A program made the translations under genes and the position numbers. DNA of 64,000 bases from an uncultured Rhodoblastus sp. (lineage in GTDB: Bacteria > Pseudomonadota > Alphaproteobacteria > Rhizobiales > Beijerinckiaceae): assembly GCF_903903185.1 (NCBI RefSeq), contig NZ_CAIUXT010000074.1, positions 1 to 64,000 on the forward strand, given 5' to 3'. The stretch's first letter is position 1, and every line of letters starts with the position of its first letter. Shown one piece after another: positions 913 through 9,626 of this stretch. Below the pieces are notes generated by a model that saw only the letters and a list, made by a program, of their open reading frames with translations, did no database searches and was not told the origin of the DNA.

Positions 913-3900
913 TTAGGCCCCTTCCTCGCCTAATTCGCGATAACGTGGCTGAATGCCTTCGTCCCGAACCGGCGCTCCCCCCTGCGCCTCGGCGCTCCAG
1001 TCCGACGTCGCGCCAGCGCAGAGCGCGGCGTCCCATGCCAGGAAGGCGCGCGCCACGCGAACGACCATTCCGCGCGCTTCGGTCGGCGCGTCGACTTGGC
1101 TCAGCAATCGGAACATCCTTGGCAGGCGTCGCGCGCGGTCGGCGAACGGAACGAGAATTGTCCATGCTCCGAACAGGTCGCGCTCCATGCGCGCTTCGAA
1201 CTCCTCGCCAAACTCGCGCGTTCTGAACGCCATGCCGAGCAGGGTCTCGCGCGCGATCGCAACCAGTTCGGTCCGGCTCGACGGCTCGGCTTCCAGCCAT
1301 CGCTTGATCGCCGCTCTCAGCGGCCGATGGAACTCCGTCGTCTCTCCGCGCAACAACAGGATTGTTTCAGCGGGATCCGCCCTGGGGCCGATTTCGACGC
1401 GTTCGTCCCGCAGTTCGCTCAGCCGCTTGTTGAAGCTGGCAAGATCTTCGACCCGCTCGAACGGCAGCAAGAGAAGCCGCTGGTTGAAGCCGCCCTCCGC
1501 TTCCAGGAGCTTGTTGAAACGCGCCGGCCAATCAGGCTGCGCCACGAACAGCGCCTCGACATTGGGACGGAAAGTTCCCTTGAAGCCAAACAACAAGCGA
1601 TGCGTCAGATAGGCGCGCACCTGCGTTTCAATGACCCCGCGCGCCTCCAGCCATGCCGGCGGCGTGATCGGGCCGCGCTCGGGCGAGAAGGCTTCCGCAA
1701 CCGCCAGGATCGAAGGCAGGAGCAGCAAAGGGCCATTTACATTGATCCCGGCGACGGCCTCCTGCAACAGGCGCCGGTGCGGCTCGGACAGGGGTCCGGG
1801 TCTGGCGAGCAGCGCAAGCCGCGTCAGCCAGTAGAGGCGCCCGTGGATGATCTGGCGCGCCGCGCGATCCCCCTCGGCGAATTCGATCGCGAGCGCGTCG
1901 ATCGCCGCCGCGATGTCGACGTCTTCAGCATCCCATTGCGCGTCATCGGCGAGCGCCTGAATGACAAAGGTCGGCGGCAACCCGTCCGGCCGCGTCGGCC
2001 GGCGCCGGTAGAGCGCCAACGCCTCCGCCGCGCGCGCGCGCCTGACGAGCCGGCCGCCTTCTCCTTCGGTCTTGCCGTCGCCTTCGAGCCGGAGGCGCCA
2101 CTGCGCGTCGCTCTCGAAACCCTCGACGCCCTCCGGGCTCGCTTCCGTATTGAAGAGACGCGCGCGCGCCGCTTCGGACAGGTCTTCCAGCGCCGCGCCC
2201 AGCGTCGAGGCGGAAAGCGTCCTCCCGTCGCCACGCGGCAGCTTTTCCCCGATCATTTCCGCGTAATAGGAGGCGAGCGTTCGGTCGGCGTCATTCGACT
2301 TGCCGTTGTGATAAGCGAGTCCGGCGCGGCGAACCTTTTCGATGAGCGCGGCCTGTTCCGGGTTCGCCCGCATCATCGACAGGATCAGCCGGCGCACTTC
2401 GGGATGGAAGGAGATCTGGTCGGTCGACAGGTCGATTCTGGTCAGCCAGCCCGCCGCCGCGAGGCCCGAATAGACAGCTTCGGCGGAAACGGGACCGGGC
2501 GCGTCGTCGACCACGGGCGCCACCACCGCGTCGAGGATGTCCCTCGTGACGAAGGGCGGGACGCAGGCCGCGAGCACATAGGGCCGCGCGGCGACCGAGG
2601 AGAGATGCCGCACGACGCGTTCGGTCAGGTACCGCGCGGCGACGGCGCCATCGACTTTTCCGCGCGAAATCGCATCGACGAAACCGGGGCGCTCGGCGTC
2701 ATTCTCCCAGACCCCGGCGGCGATACGCAGCACGAGAGGCGATCGGGGCAGAACCTGCGCGGTCATCGCGGCGATCTTCGGATCGTCGACGCCCAGGGCC
2801 TGCAGCATGGCGACCGCATTCCTTTCGTCGAGGTCCGCCAGTTCGATCGGCGGCGAGACGCTCCAAAAATCAGACAGGGACGTCGCCAGCGTCTGAGGGC
2901 CAAGCGCGGCGGCGGGCGTGCGTCCGGCGAGAATGACGCGCAAATCCGCGACGCCCATCGACCCGCCGATGGTTTCGAACCAATCGCGGAGCACGGAGAC
3001 ATCCTCGGAACCGCGCGCGAAGATCAACTCCGCCGTGTCGATCAGCAGCACGAGCGGCCGCCCGGATGCGCAGACGCGACGCAACGCGTCGAATACCACC
3101 GATTGCAGGACGCTTTGCGTTTCCGTCGCGACGCTTTCGAGGCTCTCGAAGGAAGGCGCGGCCTCGAGCGTCAAGGATCGCCGGGCCGCGAGCTTCGCCG
3201 CCTGCCCGCGATGCGCGCCGATGCGCTCGCCAAGACTGACGATGGCGTCCTGCGCGGCGCCAGCGAGTTGGCGGGACCTTTCGCGCAACGTCTTCGCCTC
3301 TTCCGGCGACACGACGAGGCTCATCTGGCGGAACAGCGTGGTTACCAGCGCGACCGGATCGGCGGGATCGAATCCCGGCTGATCGCAGTCGATATGAACG
3401 AGCAGCGGCGGCGCCGGCAGACCTTGGAAGCGCCTCTCCAGGTGAGCGAAAAGCGTCGATTTTCCGGCGCCGCCGACGCCCCAAACATAGATGTAACGCC
3501 TGACGGGGAGACTATTCCCCGCCTCCAGAACCGCCGCCGGCGCCGTGGCGAATTCGACGAGTTGATCGAGTTCGCCTTCGCGCCCGAAAAAGGGCGCGGC
3601 CGTGATGCGGGCGATGTCGGCGTCCCGGCGGCGTCGGGCGAGCAGCGCGGCGACGCGTTCGCGCAAAAGTTGCGGATCGCCGTAGCCCTCGAAGTCGGGC
3701 GCCCAGGCCAGCGACGCCAGCAGCGCCGACAGACCGTCTTCGTCCAGGCGATCGATGGCGTCGGCCGATGGATCGCGGCGCGCTTTGAGCGCCTTGCGCA
3801 GGGGGTCGTCGTCATTGCCCGGCGAAGGTTCCAGCGCCGCTTCGAGTTCCGCCGGCGACGCCGCTTGAAGCGTCCGTCGCCGCACCGCGTCGCGGAGCCG

Positions 3901-4131
3901 CCATTTTCCGGGATGGACGATATTGGTTTCAACGTCGGGGGCGAGCGCCTCCAGCGTCTCCTCGCTCACCTGTGGCGCGAGGCTGTGCGGATCGGTCCAG
4001 CCGCGGACGGCCATGGCAAGGCGCAAATGCTCGGCCGTCGCCGCAGCCGGCGACGTTTCCGCCAAAGAGCCCGCGCTCGCCTCGAACCGCCCGTCGGCGA
4101 TGCTTTTCAAAATGTTGAGGTAGGCGATCAT
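913..4131 (-). CDS. Large STAND-type P-loop NTPase (third gene of protease/NTPase operon)
   Basis: A 1072-residue cytosolic protein with no signal peptide or membrane segment. Residues 181-191 read FFGREGELDQL, the GRExEL entry motif of STAND/NACHT-like NTPases; Walker A is GVGGAGKST (218-226), Walker B is LVLLIDTAE (360-368), a sensor-like RVILAGRT follows near 398, and LPRSPLVLRIA near 461 resembles the GxPLAL motif of STAND proteins. A winged-helix-like stretch follows (about 515-590), then some 480 mostly helical residues with no recognised repeat, which would be the natural place for ligand sensing. The first 170 residues are also helical and unassigned. The ATG overlaps the stop of the upstream protease-NTPase gene by 4 bp, so translation is probably coupled. 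Family knowledge says STAND proteins are signal-dependent oligomerising switches; the signal here is unknown. Confidence 0.75.
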   Translation of the reverse strand: MIAYLNILKSIADGRFEASAGSLAETSPAAATAEHLRLAMAVRGWTDPHSLAPQVSEETLEALAPDVETNIVHPGKWRLRDAVRRRTLQAASPAELEAALEPSPGNDDDPLRKALKARRDPSADAIDRLDEDGLSALLASLAWAPDFEGYGDPQLLRERVAALLARRRRDADIARITAAPFFGREGELDQLVEFATAPAAVLEAGNSLPVRRYIYVWGVGGAGKSTLFAHLERRFQGLPAPPLLVHIDCDQPGFDPADPVALVTTLFRQMSLVVSPEEAKTLRERSRQLAGAAQDAIVSLGERIGAHRGQAAKLAARRSLTLEAAPSFESLESVATETQSVLQSVVFDALRRVCASGRPLVLLIDTAELIFARGSEDVSVLRDWFETIGGSMGVADLRVILAGRTPAAALGPQTLATSLSDFWSVSPPIELADLDERNAVAMLQALGVDDPKIAAMTAQVLPRSPLVLRIAAGVWENDAERPGFVDAISRGKVDGAVAARYLTERVVRHLSSVAARPYVLAACVPPFVTRDILDAVVAPVVDDAPGPVSAEAVYSGLAAAGWLTRIDLSTDQISFHPEVRRLILSMMRANPEQAALIEKVRRAGLAYHNGKSNDADRTLASYYAEMIGEKLPRGDGRTLSASTLGAALEDLSEAARARLFNTEASPEGVEGFESDAQWRLRLEGDGKTEGEGGRLVRRARAAEALALYRRRPTRPDGLPPTFVIQALADDAQWDAEDVDIAAAIDALAIEFAEGDRAARQIIHGRLYWLTRLALLARPGPLSEPHRRLLQEAVAGINVNGPLLLLPSILAVAEAFSPERGPITPPAWLEARGVIETQVRAYLTHRLLFGFKGTFRPNVEALFVAQPDWPARFNKLLEAEGGFNQRLLLLPFERVEDLASFNKRLSELRDERVEIGPRADPAETILLLRGETTEFHRPLRAAIKRWLEAEPSSRTELVAIARETLLGMAFRTREFGEEFEARMERDLFGAWTILVPFADRARRLPRMFRLLSQVDAPTEARGMVVRVARAFLAWDAALCAGATSDWSAEAQGGAPVRDEGIQPRYRELGEEGA

Positions 4132-6164
4132 CCCACCGCCTCCGCTAGGTCGGGGACCAGCATCCCGATGACAAGGAGCGCGGCTTCAGCCGTCGCAATG
4201 TTTGGCGCGGCGGCATGCAGCATCGCAGGGCTGTCGAACGCCTGCTCGGCCGCCGCGACCTCCTCGGCGCTGAACGCGGCGCCGTCGAGCCGACCGTTCG
4301 TCCGCAGAAAATCGGCGACATCGCGCCCCGTCAGATGACCAAGCGTCGTCAGGTCGATGATCCCGCCCCTGGTGTCGGGATCGGCCTCCAGAGCATCTTC
4401 GAGCCTGACCCGGCTGTCGCGCGACAAACCGCAAATGAGCAGGCGCGACCAGGGTGCTTTCGCCAGCGCCAGCGTCAAATGCAGCCAGCCCTCGTCATCA
4501 TGGACGAAGGCGTCGGCGTTCTCGCCTGCGTCAATGGCTACGAAGAGCGGATGCGCCTGACGATCGTGCGCGCGGTCCCGCTGGCCCCAGCGCGCGAGCG
4601 CGGCGACGATATCCTCGACCGTATCGTAGCGAATCTGGCCGTCGCGCGTGCGCGTTGCGTCTTCGGCCCGCAACTGCGCTGCAAGCGCCCTGGCCATGTC
4701 AAGCAGGCTCTTGTCCGGCGACATGCCCTCCAGTCTGAGGAGATCGCGCTCGGGGCTCGCGAGCGCGGCCTCGAGCAGATTGATGGAGAAGCTCTTGCCG
4801 CAGCCCGGCGGACCTTCGACGGACATGATCCTTTCCGCCAGAGATCCATCCGACGCGGTCGCCGTTTCGAACCATTTGTTGAGATTGCGCCGCGCGATGT
4901 CTTTCGCGCCCAGAATCGGGTGGCGTGTGAACGGAACGGTCGCCGCATCGGGGGGGGCGCCGACAATTTTCTCAAAGGCGCGGCTCCAGGCCGACCCGAG
5001 GGCCTCGCCGCAAAGCTGCTGGCCTCGCCGTCCCAGGCGCTGCACCAGCGACGCCTTCTGAAGGAGAAGCCGCGGCGCCGCCTTCGCCGCCGCCAGGGCG
5101 GCCTGCGCCGCGATGACGTTCTTGATCGCGCACAGAAGAATGGCGCGATTGGCCTGCCCGCCGGGGGCGCCCGCCCAGGGGATGGAGCCTTCATGCAGGC
5201 CGATGGGAAGAGCGCCCTCGCCGGAGCAGCAACTCCCGCTCATGCCCGGTACGGCGTTCATGGAATGGATGACGCGAGACCCCCCCGGGATGACCTGCAT
5301 CAGCGAGTCCGCGTCCATCGCCGGATCGCTGCCGCCGCGATAACCGATCACGAAAGAGAGCGGACCCTTGCTCGGGTTCTGGACGCCGTCGATGGGCACG
5401 GGCTTTGCGCCATAAATGGTCCGATCGAGTTTCAGCAATGCGAAGTCGAGATGCTTCTGCGGCTCGTCTTGCGCGTCATAGGTCGAAATCAGATGGTCCT
5501 GATTGCTGAAATAGGGTGGCGAGGAGGCGAGGAGGTTCTTGACCGACGCAATCTGTTCGCCGCCCTCCGTTTCTGGAAAAACCAGCTGAAGGTCGCCCGC
5601 CAGTCTTGGACCATATTCGACGCGCGCGTCGGTCTCGCGCTTCTCCAGCGCGACATGGGCGCAGGTGAGCGCCTCGTCCTTTCCGACGAGGAAGGCCGTC
5701 CCGAGATCACCGCCCGCCGCGCGCCGGACGCGCGCTGTCGCCTTGAAGATCTCGGAGAGCTTGCCCAGGATGCGCGGATTCGCGAGGCCCCTTGCCGAGT
5801 TGAGCACCGTATGCGGCGTTCCGCCGCCGCCGATGCGCTCGACGATCGCGTCGGCTTCGGACTTGTCGCGTTGATAATCATCGACCTCGGCATTGGCGAC
5901 CGCGACGCACAATTCTCCAAGCAGACTCGATTTCCGCGCGGCGACGCAGAGCGCCAGCATCGAGGCGAAAGGCTCGCCGCGCGGATCGGAGGGATGGTCG
6001 AGCAAGGCCACTTCGACTGCGGGCATCCCTGCGAAACGCCTTTGCAGCATCCTGTAAATCGCCCGAAAGATCGACAGATCGAGCCGCGTCCACTCGGCGA
6101 GAATCCTTGCGTCGTCCCGCATCGCCGCCGCCATTCCGGCATCGATCGTCGAAGCGTCATTCAT
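4128..6164 (-). CDS. Trypsin-like protease fused to P-loop NTPase (second gene of operon)
   Basis: A 678-residue cytosolic protein with three parts. Residues 1-95 are all-helical and resemble the small adaptor domains (effector-associated or CARD-like death-fold type) that precede proteases in bacterial conflict systems; this part is inference. Residues about 150-350 form a trypsin-like serine protease: His170 in TCAHVAL, Asp240 in LDFALLKLD and Ser309 in PGMSGS, the Ser followed by Gly-Ser rather than Gly-Gly. Residues about 415-600 form a P-loop NTPase with Walker A GPPGCGKS (451-458) and a probable Walker B at LFVAIDAGEN (540-549). Its ATG overlaps the stop of the upstream double protease, and its stop overlaps the ATG of the STAND gene. 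The fusion suggests nucleotide-dependent assembly controlling proteolysis. Domain calls for the triad and Walker A are firm; the biological role is inferred. Confidence 0.8.
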   Translation of the reverse strand: MNDASTIDAGMAAAMRDDARILAEWTRLDLSIFRAIYRMLQRRFAGMPAVEVALLDHPSDPRGEPFASMLALCVAARKSSLLGELCVAVANAEVDDYQRDKSEADAIVERIGGGGTPHTVLNSARGLANPRILGKLSEIFKATARVRRAAGGDLGTAFLVGKDEALTCAHVALEKRETDARVEYGPRLAGDLQLVFPETEGGEQIASVKNLLASSPPYFSNQDHLISTYDAQDEPQKHLDFALLKLDRTIYGAKPVPIDGVQNPSKGPLSFVIGYRGGSDPAMDADSLMQVIPGGSRVIHSMNAVPGMSGSCCSGEGALPIGLHEGSIPWAGAPGGQANRAILLCAIKNVIAAQAALAAAKAAPRLLLQKASLVQRLGRRGQQLCGEALGSAWSRAFEKIVGAPPDAATVPFTRHPILGAKDIARRNLNKWFETATASDGSLAERIMSVEGPPGCGKSFSINLLEAALASPERDLLRLEGMSPDKSLLDMARALAAQLRAEDATRTRDGQIRYDTVEDIVAALARWGQRDRAHDRQAHPLFVAIDAGENADAFVHDDEGWLHLTLALAKAPWSRLLICGLSRDSRVRLEDALEADPDTRGGIIDLTTLGHLTGRDVADFLRTNGRLDGAAFSAEEVAAAEQAFDSPAMLHAAAPNIATAEAALLVIGMLVPDLAEAVG

Positions 6165-9037
6165 GAGAACAGGCCACCGAATCCCGGCAGGGCGTCTTTC
6201 AGCGCCGGAAACGAAAGCGCGAAATTGCTGTCGCTGTCATAACCCGTGAAATGCAGCCCGAATCCTGGCGTATCCGCGTCCTTGAACGCGAAGAGCAACG
6301 ATCCGGAAGCGCCCTTCAGCGTCGTGGCGTCGTGGCCGATCGTGTTCTTGAGCGTATCCCGGACGTCCGAGCCGAGCGCCCGGGAGTAGGCGCCCGGCGC
6401 CAGCCGCTTCACGCCGAAGCTCCCGCCAAACAGCTGGGACGCAACGAAGCCCCAGTCGATCTTGTCCGAAACGCCTTCGCTGCGCGCCGGCGGACCAGGG
6501 AAGCCGATTGTCGCCAGCGTGGGTTTTTCACCGGTTACATATTCCGCCGCTGCCGACAGTTTGGCGCGCGTGTAGGGCGCGGCGGGCCCCCCGGTGGGCA
6601 AAGGCTTCCCGTCGACCGAGTCGCCGAGCTTCAGCAGCACCGCGTCGATGAAGCCAAACCCTGGCCCGGCGCGCGTCGGGTACACGGCCTCGACAATCTT
6701 GAAGCGACTGAAGTCCGCCCGGCCTGTTTCTCCGAGGAAATCGATTTCGAGTCCGCTCTCGATGGCGGCTCCGCCCGGCTTGTCTACGGCGAGGACGGGG
6801 TAACTCCGGCGCGCCATCGCGAGCACGTGGAAATTGGTCAGCACCCAGGGGCCCTGAGCGTCAACCAGCGTTCCCGTCCCGCAGTAACGATTGGCGTGCC
6901 CGCCGCTCGGCTGAATCCGACCCACCAGCGCGGCCACGGCCTTCAGTCCGTCGCGGCCCCCGACAAGGTCGTTGCGCCATCCGCGGATCAGCGGGTTCGC
7001 TTCGTCGATCCAGTTTTCCTTGATCATGAAGCTCGGCCGCGACCCGTCGGCCTTGATCACGGCCTCCATCGCCGCGACATCGTCGCCGGACAGGACCGCA
7101 GCCGGATCGATGACCTTGCGCAGGCCGGCGGCGCCATGCTCGCGCACAATGTCGAGCGCCCGCTCAAAATCCGCGCGGTCGGCGATTTCGCTCTCCGGCA
7201 TGTCCTTGAATAGCCGCTCGACCGACTTTTCGAATTCGTCCGCGCTCGGCAGATCCTCGCCCGTCGACTCCAGCGCCGCGCGCTCCGCCCGCGCGCCGGA
7301 CGACAACGCCTTGCCCATGCTGAGCGCGCGCTTCACCGCGTCGATGCGCGCAACGAGGGATGTGTCCTGTTCCGCCCTCGGACGCGGGATGGCCGGCGCG
7401 GCGGGAAAAGGCGCGGCGCCGGGTCTGACGATCGGAGGCGCATCGAGCGCCGCGCGGACCGTCGGCGTAAGCGTCGCTTCCAGCTCTTTCGAAAGCGTGA
7501 CGGGCGCCGTCGGGTCGAGACGGCGCGCCAGCAGCGCCGCGGCAAGTTCGCCGCCATGGGCGAGCAGGGCGTCGTCGGCCATCCCCGGATCGGCGCCGAT
7601 CGCTTCCGCGACGAAAACGCGCATCTCCTCGGCCGGCGTACGCGGCGTCGCCGCGACGGGCGCCTCGACGCCGCGGCCAAGATCGAAAGGCGCCTCGATC
7701 AGAGCCAGTGCGTCGATCACGCCGCCGCCCATATTGACGCCGTCCCAACCCGCCGGTCGTCTGGCGCTGGCGCGCGCTATGCGGCGAAACATGGTCTGAA
7801 GCGTCTCGCCCCGGGCCTCGGCCTCATCGATCAGCCTTTCGCGGCCATGATGCGCGATCCAGCAGGCCGCCGCGCCTGCGGCGAGCGCGACGGCGAAACT
7901 CGTGCCCTGGCCCTGGCCGACGCCGTCCTTCTCAATCGTCGCGCGATAGACGTTCTGCGCCGGCGCGGCGAATTCGACCTCGGGTCCCGACGAGGAGCCA
8001 GGCCATTTCTGGTCCTGCGCATTGACGCCGGCGACCGCGATGCACGCTTCGAGGCGCGCCGGGAATACGACGAGGCCGACGCAATTGCCAGCCGCCGCCA
8101 TGACGATCACATGACGCTTGACCGCGCGTTCGATCGCCTCTCTCAGGGGCGAAAACGGCAAAGGCGGACCGCCAAGCGACATGGTGATCACCTGCGCGCC
8201 GTTCTCAACCGCCTTGTCGATCGCCGCCGCGATGGGAATTTCCTCGTGCAGCCAGACGCTGCGAATGGCGCGGATCGGCAGGTGACGCGCTTTCGGCGCG
8301 CTGCCGATAAACGGGTCGCCCGGGCCGGTTCCGCGGCTGACGACGACGCTCGCCGTTCCGGTCCCATGTCCGGGATTGAGCGCGAAACCGGATTGCAGAG
8401 GATCGGTGGCGTCGTTCGCCGGGCCGTCGCCCAAAGTGTTGAAAGCGGCGACGACATCGACGCCCGCGAGTTCCGGATGTTTGGTTATCCCCGTGTCCGG
8501 TTGCGCGATGATGATTCCTTCGCCGCGCGCCGGCCGCCCGAGCGCCTCGGAACGCGCCCAGGCGGCGAAAAGATTCATGCCTTCGAGCGCCCAGCGCGGC
8601 GGAAGCGCCGGCTCCGCCGGACTCCAGCACCCCAGCGGAAAATTGTCGAGGCCTTCGAGATTTTCCTGGCCCGGCTCGCGCGGCGTCTGATCCGGCGCGG
8701 CGACGCGCGGCAGATCGGGTTCGACGAAACGCGCTCCCGTCGCCTTGGCCAAAGCGCGGCCCAGTTCATGCGCCTGGTCGGGTCGCTGATAGGCGCGCGC
8801 AAGCGAGAAGGCGCGCCCGGAGAATTCCAGCACGCCGATTCCTTGCGGGAGCGCTGTCAGTGCGAAGGGCTCGTTGGGCAAGCGCCGCCTCAGCGCCTCG
8901 CGCGCGGCTTCGAGGCCGCCTTCGTTGGAAACGACGAGAAAGCGCGCGGGCGGCGTCCTGGATTGCGCCCCGTCCGCGCGCGGATCCAGTGTGCTGTCTA
9001 TCAGGCCGCCAAGCTCCAGGGAGTCCGAACCCGTCAT
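6161..9037 (-). CDS. Subtilase-trypsin double serine protease (first gene of operon)
   Basis: A 958-residue protein carrying two complete serine protease domains and no signal peptide. The N-terminal 110 residues look like a subtilase propeptide-type region. The S8 subtilase domain has Asp181 (AQPDTGI), His224 (GHGTGTAS), oxyanion Asn318 (AAAGNCVG) and Ser380 (GQGTSFAVA). After a helical, proline-rich linker of about 250 residues comes a trypsin-like domain with His737 (LTNFHVLA), Asp798 (FIDAVLL) and Ser911 (KGASGSL). The ATG was chosen over the TTG given in the ORF track because GAGGAG lies 8 nt upstream of it. The stop overlaps the next gene's ATG by 4 bp. Having both protease folds in one cytosolic polypeptide, beside a trypsin-NTPase and a STAND NTPase, suggests a proteolytic cascade; the substrate is unknown and no pore-former gene is visible nearby. 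Confidence 0.8.
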   Translation of the reverse strand: MTGSDSLELGGLIDSTLDPRADGAQSRTPPARFLVVSNEGGLEAAREALRRRLPNEPFALTALPQGIGVLEFSGRAFSLARAYQRPDQAHELGRALAKATGARFVEPDLPRVAAPDQTPREPGQENLEGLDNFPLGCWSPAEPALPPRWALEGMNLFAAWARSEALGRPARGEGIIIAQPDTGITKHPELAGVDVVAAFNTLGDGPANDATDPLQSGFALNPGHGTGTASVVVSRGTGPGDPFIGSAPKARHLPIRAIRSVWLHEEIPIAAAIDKAVENGAQVITMSLGGPPLPFSPLREAIERAVKRHVIVMAAAGNCVGLVVFPARLEACIAVAGVNAQDQKWPGSSSGPEVEFAAPAQNVYRATIEKDGVGQGQGTSFAVALAAGAAACWIAHHGRERLIDEAEARGETLQTMFRRIARASARRPAGWDGVNMGGGVIDALALIEAPFDLGRGVEAPVAATPRTPAEEMRVFVAEAIGADPGMADDALLAHGGELAAALLARRLDPTAPVTLSKELEATLTPTVRAALDAPPIVRPGAAPFPAAPAIPRPRAEQDTSLVARIDAVKRALSMGKALSSGARAERAALESTGEDLPSADEFEKSVERLFKDMPESEIADRADFERALDIVREHGAAGLRKVIDPAAVLSGDDVAAMEAVIKADGSRPSFMIKENWIDEANPLIRGWRNDLVGGRDGLKAVAALVGRIQPSGGHANRYCGTGTLVDAQGPWVLTNFHVLAMARRSYPVLAVDKPGGAAIESGLEIDFLGETGRADFSRFKIVEAVYPTRAGPGFGFIDAVLLKLGDSVDGKPLPTGGPAAPYTRAKLSAAAEYVTGEKPTLATIGFPGPPARSEGVSDKIDWGFVASQLFGGSFGVKRLAPGAYSRALGSDVRDTLKNTIGHDATTLKGASGSLLFAFKDADTPGFGLHFTGYDSDSNFALSFPALKDALPGFGGLFS

Positions 9038-9626
9038 CCAGCCACTCCTCAATAAATCAATAAATTAAGGGCGTCTCAACGAAAGAAAAAGCCGGAGATT
9101 TACTGAATGTCTCCACCCGAACTAGATATAATGATGGCCCAATATGACGCTCCTGACAAGCGGCAAGGCGGATACTGTCGATAGCGAATCAAATTGGCCG
9201 GATTTGGTGGCGCCTCAAATATCCGAGAACGGGCTTATGGAAACTGGATAGATCGATAATTGGCTTTTCTGTTGCGCAGGCGAAGCTAGCGTGATCCTGC
9301 CGGCGCAAGTACGGCCGGCTAACCGGGATGATTCACAGCGTGTGATTTTTGGGGTGGCGGACATAGCTTAAGGCCATGATACCGCGTAGGATTCGGGCGC
9401 CTAAGCCAACCCTTCACGCGTTTCACGCCAGCCACGCCCGCCATGATCGAAAATACGATTCTGCCCTTCTCGTTTCCAGCCGTCGCGCGCAAGAAAGTCA
9501 CAACTGATTTCGACGGCGGTCGGCTCACCTAGGCAATCAATTCAATTTTACTAAAAAGATCTGAATTACCTATGGTCATTCACCACAGGCGTCATCGACA
9601 CGCAACGTTGCGGCTGATTTACAAAA
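9038..9626. other. Intergenic region between protease operon and addA
   Basis: These 589 bases are A/T-richer than the surroundings and hold no intact gene. The part next to 9037 is the leader of the protease operon, with an A/T-rich run just before the Shine-Dalgarno; no convincing sigma70 promoter was found. The centre holds a possible coding relic on the minus strand, listed separately. The 9319..9528 ORF of the track overlaps this relic in another frame and has no family resemblance. addA genes of related bacteria are often followed by trxA; none is seen here, which agrees with an insertion downstream of addA. Confidence 0.5.
9401..9535 (-). pseudogene. Possible coding relic, function unknown
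   Basis: A minus-strand frame without a usable start reads DFLARDGWKREGQNRIFDHG and ends at a TAG at 9401. The amino-acid composition and the alternation of charged and glycine residues look like the tail of a real protein rather than random sequence, and it seems to begin abruptly near 9535. I do not recognise the family. If real, it is a leftover of a gene interrupted when the neighbouring island arrived. A translated database search of this frame would confirm or dismiss it. Confidence 0.25.

Follow-up and report, generated by a model that had tools for sequence, protein, structure and literature searches.

The operon at positions 913 to 9037 on the minus strand of the window (the whole analysed stretch of DNA, 64,000 nucleotides) is, with a probability that we put at roughly 85%, a subtilase-type CARD-NLR immune system acting by a route that leads from a sensor through a CARD-bearing protease to a subtilase-trypsin. 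This identification is based on the homology and synteny of the operon with that of Azospirillum sp. TSO35-2, whose CARD has been solved, and on the matching CARD recognised by profile and fold in gene 2. DefenseFinder divides CARD_NLR systems into subtypes, one of which is subtilase. The operon adds a member to a kind already described, in the branch to which the Azospirillum operon with the crystallised CARD also belongs.

Gene 1 (6161-9037, 958 aa) encodes a subtilase-trypsin fusion, a putative executing or activating double protease; gene 2 (4128-6164, 678 aa) a CARD-trypsin-NTPase, the putative LypA-like adaptor protease; and gene 3 (913-4131, 1072 aa) a STAND/NLR-like NTPase, the putative LypB-like sensor. 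An ORF check confirmed that, as the first-pass annotation had it, the three genes lie at these coordinates on the minus strand and are joined by ATGA overlaps, visible on the plus strand as TCAT at 6161-6164 (genes 1 and 2) and 4128-4131 (genes 2 and 3). A ribosome-binding site, GAGGAG, is located at 9045-9050, 7 nt upstream of the gene 1 ATG. The GC content by codon position is about 0.71/0.51/0.80 in genes 1-3, a strong coding bias, and since these values are the same as those of addA, the ORFs were regarded as real genes. The hydropathy scan gave a Kyte-Doolittle maximum of 1.85, with no evident transmembrane helix or signal peptide in the three proteins, which makes their proposed cytosolic location plausible.

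Upstream, the operon is followed by addA and an AddB-like nuclease gene. The spacer between addA and the operon (9038-9626, 589 bp), in which the promoter is presumed to lie, has a GC content of 0.50 versus about 0.65 in the surroundings, which suggests that it is either the scar of an insertion or regulatory DNA. The IS1380 relic noticed earlier at the downstream edge is real: a remnant at 460-666 on the plus strand matches PF13701 (4.6e-10) over the C-terminal 69 residues of the transposase. The first base of the window is the start of contig C74, where the view downstream of gene 3 ends.

The gene 2 protein carries a trypsin-like domain (5115-5777; Trypsin_2, PF13365, 1.4e-10), whose triad H170/D240/S309 is invariant in relatives, and an NTPase domain (4131-4919; AAA_22, PF13401, 4.4e-5) with an intact Walker A motif, GPPGCGKS. 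The PADLOC model PDLC03017 matches the protein at 3e-40. In front of the protease, residues 18-115 (5820-6113) form a predicted CARD-like death-fold domain, assigned by profile and Foldseek. The single-sequence search of this N-terminus against the PDB found nothing. A profile was then built from the N-termini of the window, Ancylobacter and Azospirillum agricola proteins (n = 3), with the solved proteins left out to avoid circularity; its PDB matches were 8ss1 (2e-6) and the CARD of Lysobacter enzymogenes (9frr/8srz, 2e-5 to 8e-5), with nothing else below 1. The AlphaFold2 model of residues 1-133, for which the input alignment included the Azospirillum TSO35-2 sequence, has a pLDDT of about 90 over residues 21-110. 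When the model was compared with the PDB by Foldseek, six bacterial CARD chains took the top six places with a probability of 1.00, the rest remaining below 0.5; the TM-scores to the targets were 0.64-0.83, and the short length of the domain kept the E-values modest (0.007-0.04). On profile and predicted-fold grounds, the N-terminus of gene 2 is a bacterial CARD.

The solved CARD (8ss1, 9cs7, 9cs8), which the PDB titles name a 'bacterial CARD' or a 'bacterial death-like domain', is 100% identical to the N-terminus of the gene 2 homologue in the syntenic TSO35-2 locus (L018), and gene 2 is 31% identical to the protein that carries it over 608 columns. The TSO35-2 operon has the same genes in the same order and on the same strand, with the same domains, including the CARD and the S8-trypsin fusion. 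The two operons differ by a moderate divergence (43/31/36% identity for genes 1/2/3) and in their flanks, which hold transposase-like ORFs in Azospirillum and addA and the IS1380 relic here.

In gene 3, the N-terminal domain (residues 1-175; 3607-4131), delimited by homology, is followed by the NTPase domain (2872-3606) with an intact Walker A motif, GVGGAGKS; the Pfam matches of the protein are AAA_22 (PF13401, 5.3e-6), nSTAND1 (PF20703, 6.7e-4) and AAA_16. The C-terminal region (residues 601-1072; 916-2331) is presumed to be the sensor by analogy with NLRs and LypB. Gene 3 is 36% identical to its TSO35-2 homologue over about 1090 columns, and in the tree of gene 3 homologues the window sequence groups with those of Ancylobacter, Azospirillum agricola and TSO35-2 (L016, L017 and L018) at 100/99 support.

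Gene 1 begins with a predicted subtilisin-type prodomain (residues 31-107; 8717-8947), continues with the S8 subtilase domain (7688-8590; Peptidase_S8, PF00082, 4.8e-25) and a helical linker without a known domain (residues 468-663; 7049-7636), and ends in a trypsin-like domain (6167-6937). The subtilase triad D181/H224/S380 is invariant among 27 aligned sequences. The Trypsin_2 match of 8.5e-6, taken alone, falls slightly below the family cut-off; the domain is made clear by the triad H737/D798/S911, which is kept in relatives, and by the PADLOC model PDLC03010, which matches residues 600-955 at 5e-92. That model is named 'nacht', a name that looks misleading, as it matches the trypsin-like region (window 6173-7240) and no NTPase. 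Among the Pfam domains of gene 1 there is no Endonuclease_NS match.

The AlphaFold2 model of gene 1 has a mean pLDDT of 85. It shows a small alpha/beta domain at the N-terminus with a beta-alpha-beta-beta-alpha-beta fold (pLDDT about 85-90), joined to the subtilase by a flexible loop at residues 116-135. In alignments, unprocessed pro-subtilisin E (3whi) covers 428-434 columns versus about 305 for mature subtilisins. Because a prodomain-like domain and loop are modelled and pro-subtilisin aligns over more columns, gene 1 is likely a zymogen, to be activated by cleavage at about residues 116-135. The three assignments of the first-pass annotation (subtilase-trypsin, trypsin-NTPase, STAND NTPase) all held, with the catalytic and Walker A motifs intact; what it had overlooked are the CARD at the gene 2 N-terminus and the likely prodomain of gene 1.

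Complete trios related to the one described here were found in several bacteria. The trio of Ancylobacter polymorphus, among the three closest, is 54/42/43% identical to the window for genes 1/2/3, and that of Azospirillum agricola 52/36/41%. When plasmids were searched by tblastn with gene 1, Rhizobium phaseoli, Ruegeria pomeroyi and Polaromonas proved to carry this trio; in Paracoccus it is split, and in Sinorhizobium the STAND gene is broken. The species-wide contig scan, covering one genome per species from 85,462 species with query A3 (A4 and A6 being too diverged), yielded 77 loci. In plasmids and genomes together, an S8 gene, a gene 2 homologue and a gene 3 homologue follow each other in this order and on the same strand at 40 loci, a few of them near-identical copies, with Alpha- and Betaproteobacteria and Actinomycetota among the hosts. 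The lack of synteny named earlier as speaking against an immune or cell-death system was thus not borne out, and the double protease, which had been taken for a peculiarity of this operon, is the usual form in this clade.

Two other arrangements were observed. Subtilase-trypsins 40-44% identical to gene 1 occur at L019, L020, L021, L022 and L052, loci where homologues of neither gene 2 nor gene 3 were found; at L020, in Rhodomicrobium, a caspase-domain gene directly follows the subtilase-trypsin. These proteins are possibly the same executioner under another sensor. At L056, L068, L071, L073, L075, L078 and L081, a single protein of about 1260-1310 aa combines trypsin, NucA nuclease and subtilase, in this order, and its gene is followed by a separate trypsin and by gene 2 and gene 3 homologues.

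Close to the host, the system appears to be sparse. No gene 3 homologue turned up in the 10 congeners searched, and a search of 385 alphaproteobacterial genomes with the gene 3 profile, in which few candidates were scored per genome, found it in at least one besides the window. This rarity within the class is in line with what has been reported for CARD-NLR systems, which DefenseFinder detects in about 0.35% of bacterial genomes according to a figure cited in PMC13236601. The congeners do carry addA, and by eye the ORFs up to 1.5 kb beyond it are unlike the trio; because this flank holds no trio-like ORFs, the trio was probably inserted next to addAB as an accessory element.

Several characterised or predicted systems are comparable with the operon. 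Those of TSO35-2 and L. enzymogenes are described in the literature as CARD-NLR anti-phage systems, and Wein et al. (2025, Nature) reported the function of bacterial CARDs, as cited in PMC13236601, PMC12409349 and PMC12805718. The gasdermin CARD-NLR system of L. enzymogenes (8srz, 9frr) likewise has a CARD-bearing trypsin-like protease and an NLR-like sensor, and its CARD matches that of gene 2 by both profile and fold. This Lysobacter relative defends against phage and kills by a gasdermin pore, whereas the window has the subtilase-trypsin and no gasdermin was seen between addA and the contig start. Phage T4 RIIB is reported to switch on a gasdermin defence system (PMC12409349).

The LypABC system of Caulobacter crescentus drives lysis for the release of gene transfer agents (GTA) (PMC13236601). 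The LypB ATPase and the LypA and LypC peptidases are all required for lysis, and their misregulation is toxic; the N-terminal domain of LypB is needed and binds the LypA CARD, and LypC bound neither LypA nor LypB in a two-hybrid test (PMC13236601). As in the window, LypA is a CARD-trypsin-NTPase, LypB consists of an N-terminal domain, an NTPase and helical repeats, and a third protein contains a trypsin. The differences concern LypC, which is a trypsin-NucA fusion where gene 1 is an S8-trypsin, the absence of conserved Walker residues in LypA as opposed to the intact motif of gene 2, and the part that Lyp plays in GTA release. Pairwise BLAST of gene 2 against a Paraburkholderia LypA-like protein gave nothing significant; the relation is visible only by profile and through closer relatives.

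Systems with S8 and trypsin peptidases, a death-like domain and a STAND NTPase were predicted in 2020 as 'System 3' (Kaur et al. 2020, PMC7159879). They are mostly alphaproteobacterial and comprise S8 and trypsin peptidases, NucA, the death-like domain bDLD2 and a STAND NTPase fused to trypsin and the death-like domain. System 3 is defined by its NucA nuclease, but the window operon has none, and the trypsin-NucA of this genome lies on another contig, C120. PADLOC holds models for two of the proteins, with the strong matches to genes 1 and 2 given above, and the loci L016 and L018 also give hits to PDLC03014, its model for the subtilase. The earlier description of the operon as undescribed was therefore wrong, given the PDB CARD of the syntenic TSO35-2 operon, the prediction of 2020 and these PADLOC models. 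The immune or cell-death function that it proposed is supported by homology to the CARD-NLR and LypABC systems, as are its order of action, from the STAND protein through the trypsin-NTPase to the double protease, and its parallel with gasdermin operons.

From homology to the characterised relatives, gene 3 is assigned as the sensor, gene 2 as the CARD-adaptor protease and gene 1 as the downstream protease. The C-terminal part of gene 3 would pick up a signal of infection; the protein would assemble with ATP, and its N-terminal domain would bind the gene 2 CARD, as LypB does with LypA. Once clustered, the gene 2 trypsin would process gene 1; the cut at residues 116-135 or thereabouts could be made by gene 2 or by the trypsin of gene 1 itself. 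We infer the activation of gene 1 by gene 2 from analogy, although the failure of LypC to bind LypA or LypB in the two-hybrid test speaks against it, and we likewise infer the step from active gene 1 to cell death. In that last step the activated zymogen would destroy the cell by proteolysis or cleave a separate death effector, and either way the phage would be kept from spreading.

The subtilase is probably the executioner itself or the activator of something unlinked; an effector may also have gone unrecognised. That the CARD-recruited protease activates a subtilase zymogen whose proteolytic activity kills without the help of a pore, a nuclease or a lipase is a tenable proposal to which we give somewhat less than even odds. 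In the stretch of the window from addA to the contig start, neither a NucA nor a PLD gene was seen, and no gasdermin candidate was recognised by a reading made without a gasdermin model. Across the relatives, the trypsin-NucA gene of Ancylobacter adjoins the trio in divergent orientation, a trypsin-phospholipase D lies just upstream of the Azospirillum agricola trio on the same strand, and other loci have a trypsin-NucA fused to the subtilase or a NucA downstream. Altogether, NucA or PLD is present at 15/40 trio loci, and BLAST found neither gene at the other 25, with flanks of up to 10 kb. Because related trypsin domains are paired with a subtilase, a NucA nuclease or a phospholipase D at different loci, a modular executioner slot is suggested.

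A variant of the main explanation, which we consider less likely than not, regards the operon as the activating part only, with the subtilase-trypsin activating an unlinked effector such as the C120 trypsin-NucA. The two closest relatives, with trypsin-NucA or trypsin-PLD beside the trio, point in this direction, as does LypABC, which also lacks an obvious executioner and whose nuclease is dispensable (PMC13236601). So does the genome itself, which encodes on C120 both the trypsin-NucA and a 399-aa protease akin to the C-terminal trypsin of gene 1. However, 25 trio loci have no NucA or PLD gene by BLAST, so that as a rule such systems can do without a linked effector of this sort, and C120 has a STAND NTPase of its own and could be self-contained.

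The C120 locus (L099, C120:58000-77500) is a second multi-protease conflict locus of the same genome. It encodes an nSTAND1-WD40 protein (1362 aa) with an N-terminus TIR-like in appearance, the trypsin-NucA (734 aa), a caspase-trypsin (1040 aa), a lone trypsin and the 399-aa protease, which is closely related to the gene 1 C-terminus. It could serve the operon in trans or be a separate system.

It is unlikely that the operon, of CARD-NLR ancestry, serves the host or a domesticated phage by lysing the cell for the release of gene transfer agents and has no part in phage defence. LypABC, homologous in architecture, acts in this way in Caulobacter (PMC13236601), and a phage- or GTA-like gene cluster of this genome includes a GTA_TIM-family domain. 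This cluster (L100, C150:75000-94000; GTA_TIM, PF13547) is relevant because LypABC controls GTA release, but it may be either a GTA or a prophage. Against this reading, the Azospirillum CARD-NLR operon is the nearest one in which a protein has been studied, and the absence of gene 3 from the 10 congeners, together with the plasmid-borne trios of relatives, fits an accessory defence cargo.

An ordinary protease or secretion locus, with a mycosin- or cyanobactin-like subtilase and a regulatory ATPase, is highly improbable: the subtilase domain does give hits to TIGR03921 (mycosin) and to models of PatA type, but at 133 bits against a cut-off of 279 (mycosin) and 41 against 421 (PatA-PatG), the CARD and STAND partners are conserved, and the location in a secretion or secondary-metabolism locus that the first-pass annotation had named as speaking against its proposal was not borne out, since addA and the AddB-like nuclease gene lie upstream and no secretion or RiPP genes accompany them.

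Read as a subtilase-type CARD-NLR system, the module resembles an animal inflammasome in combining a sensor with two proteases, an adaptor that bears a CARD and an executing one. If the subtilase alone executes, a protease cascade would kill the cell with neither a pore nor a nuclease; alternatively, the subtilase would need a separate substrate, in the manner of fungal HET-Q2, which acts on a gasdermin (PMC10989679). The operon extends to a new host a rare family that bridges animal inflammasomes and bacterial immunity.
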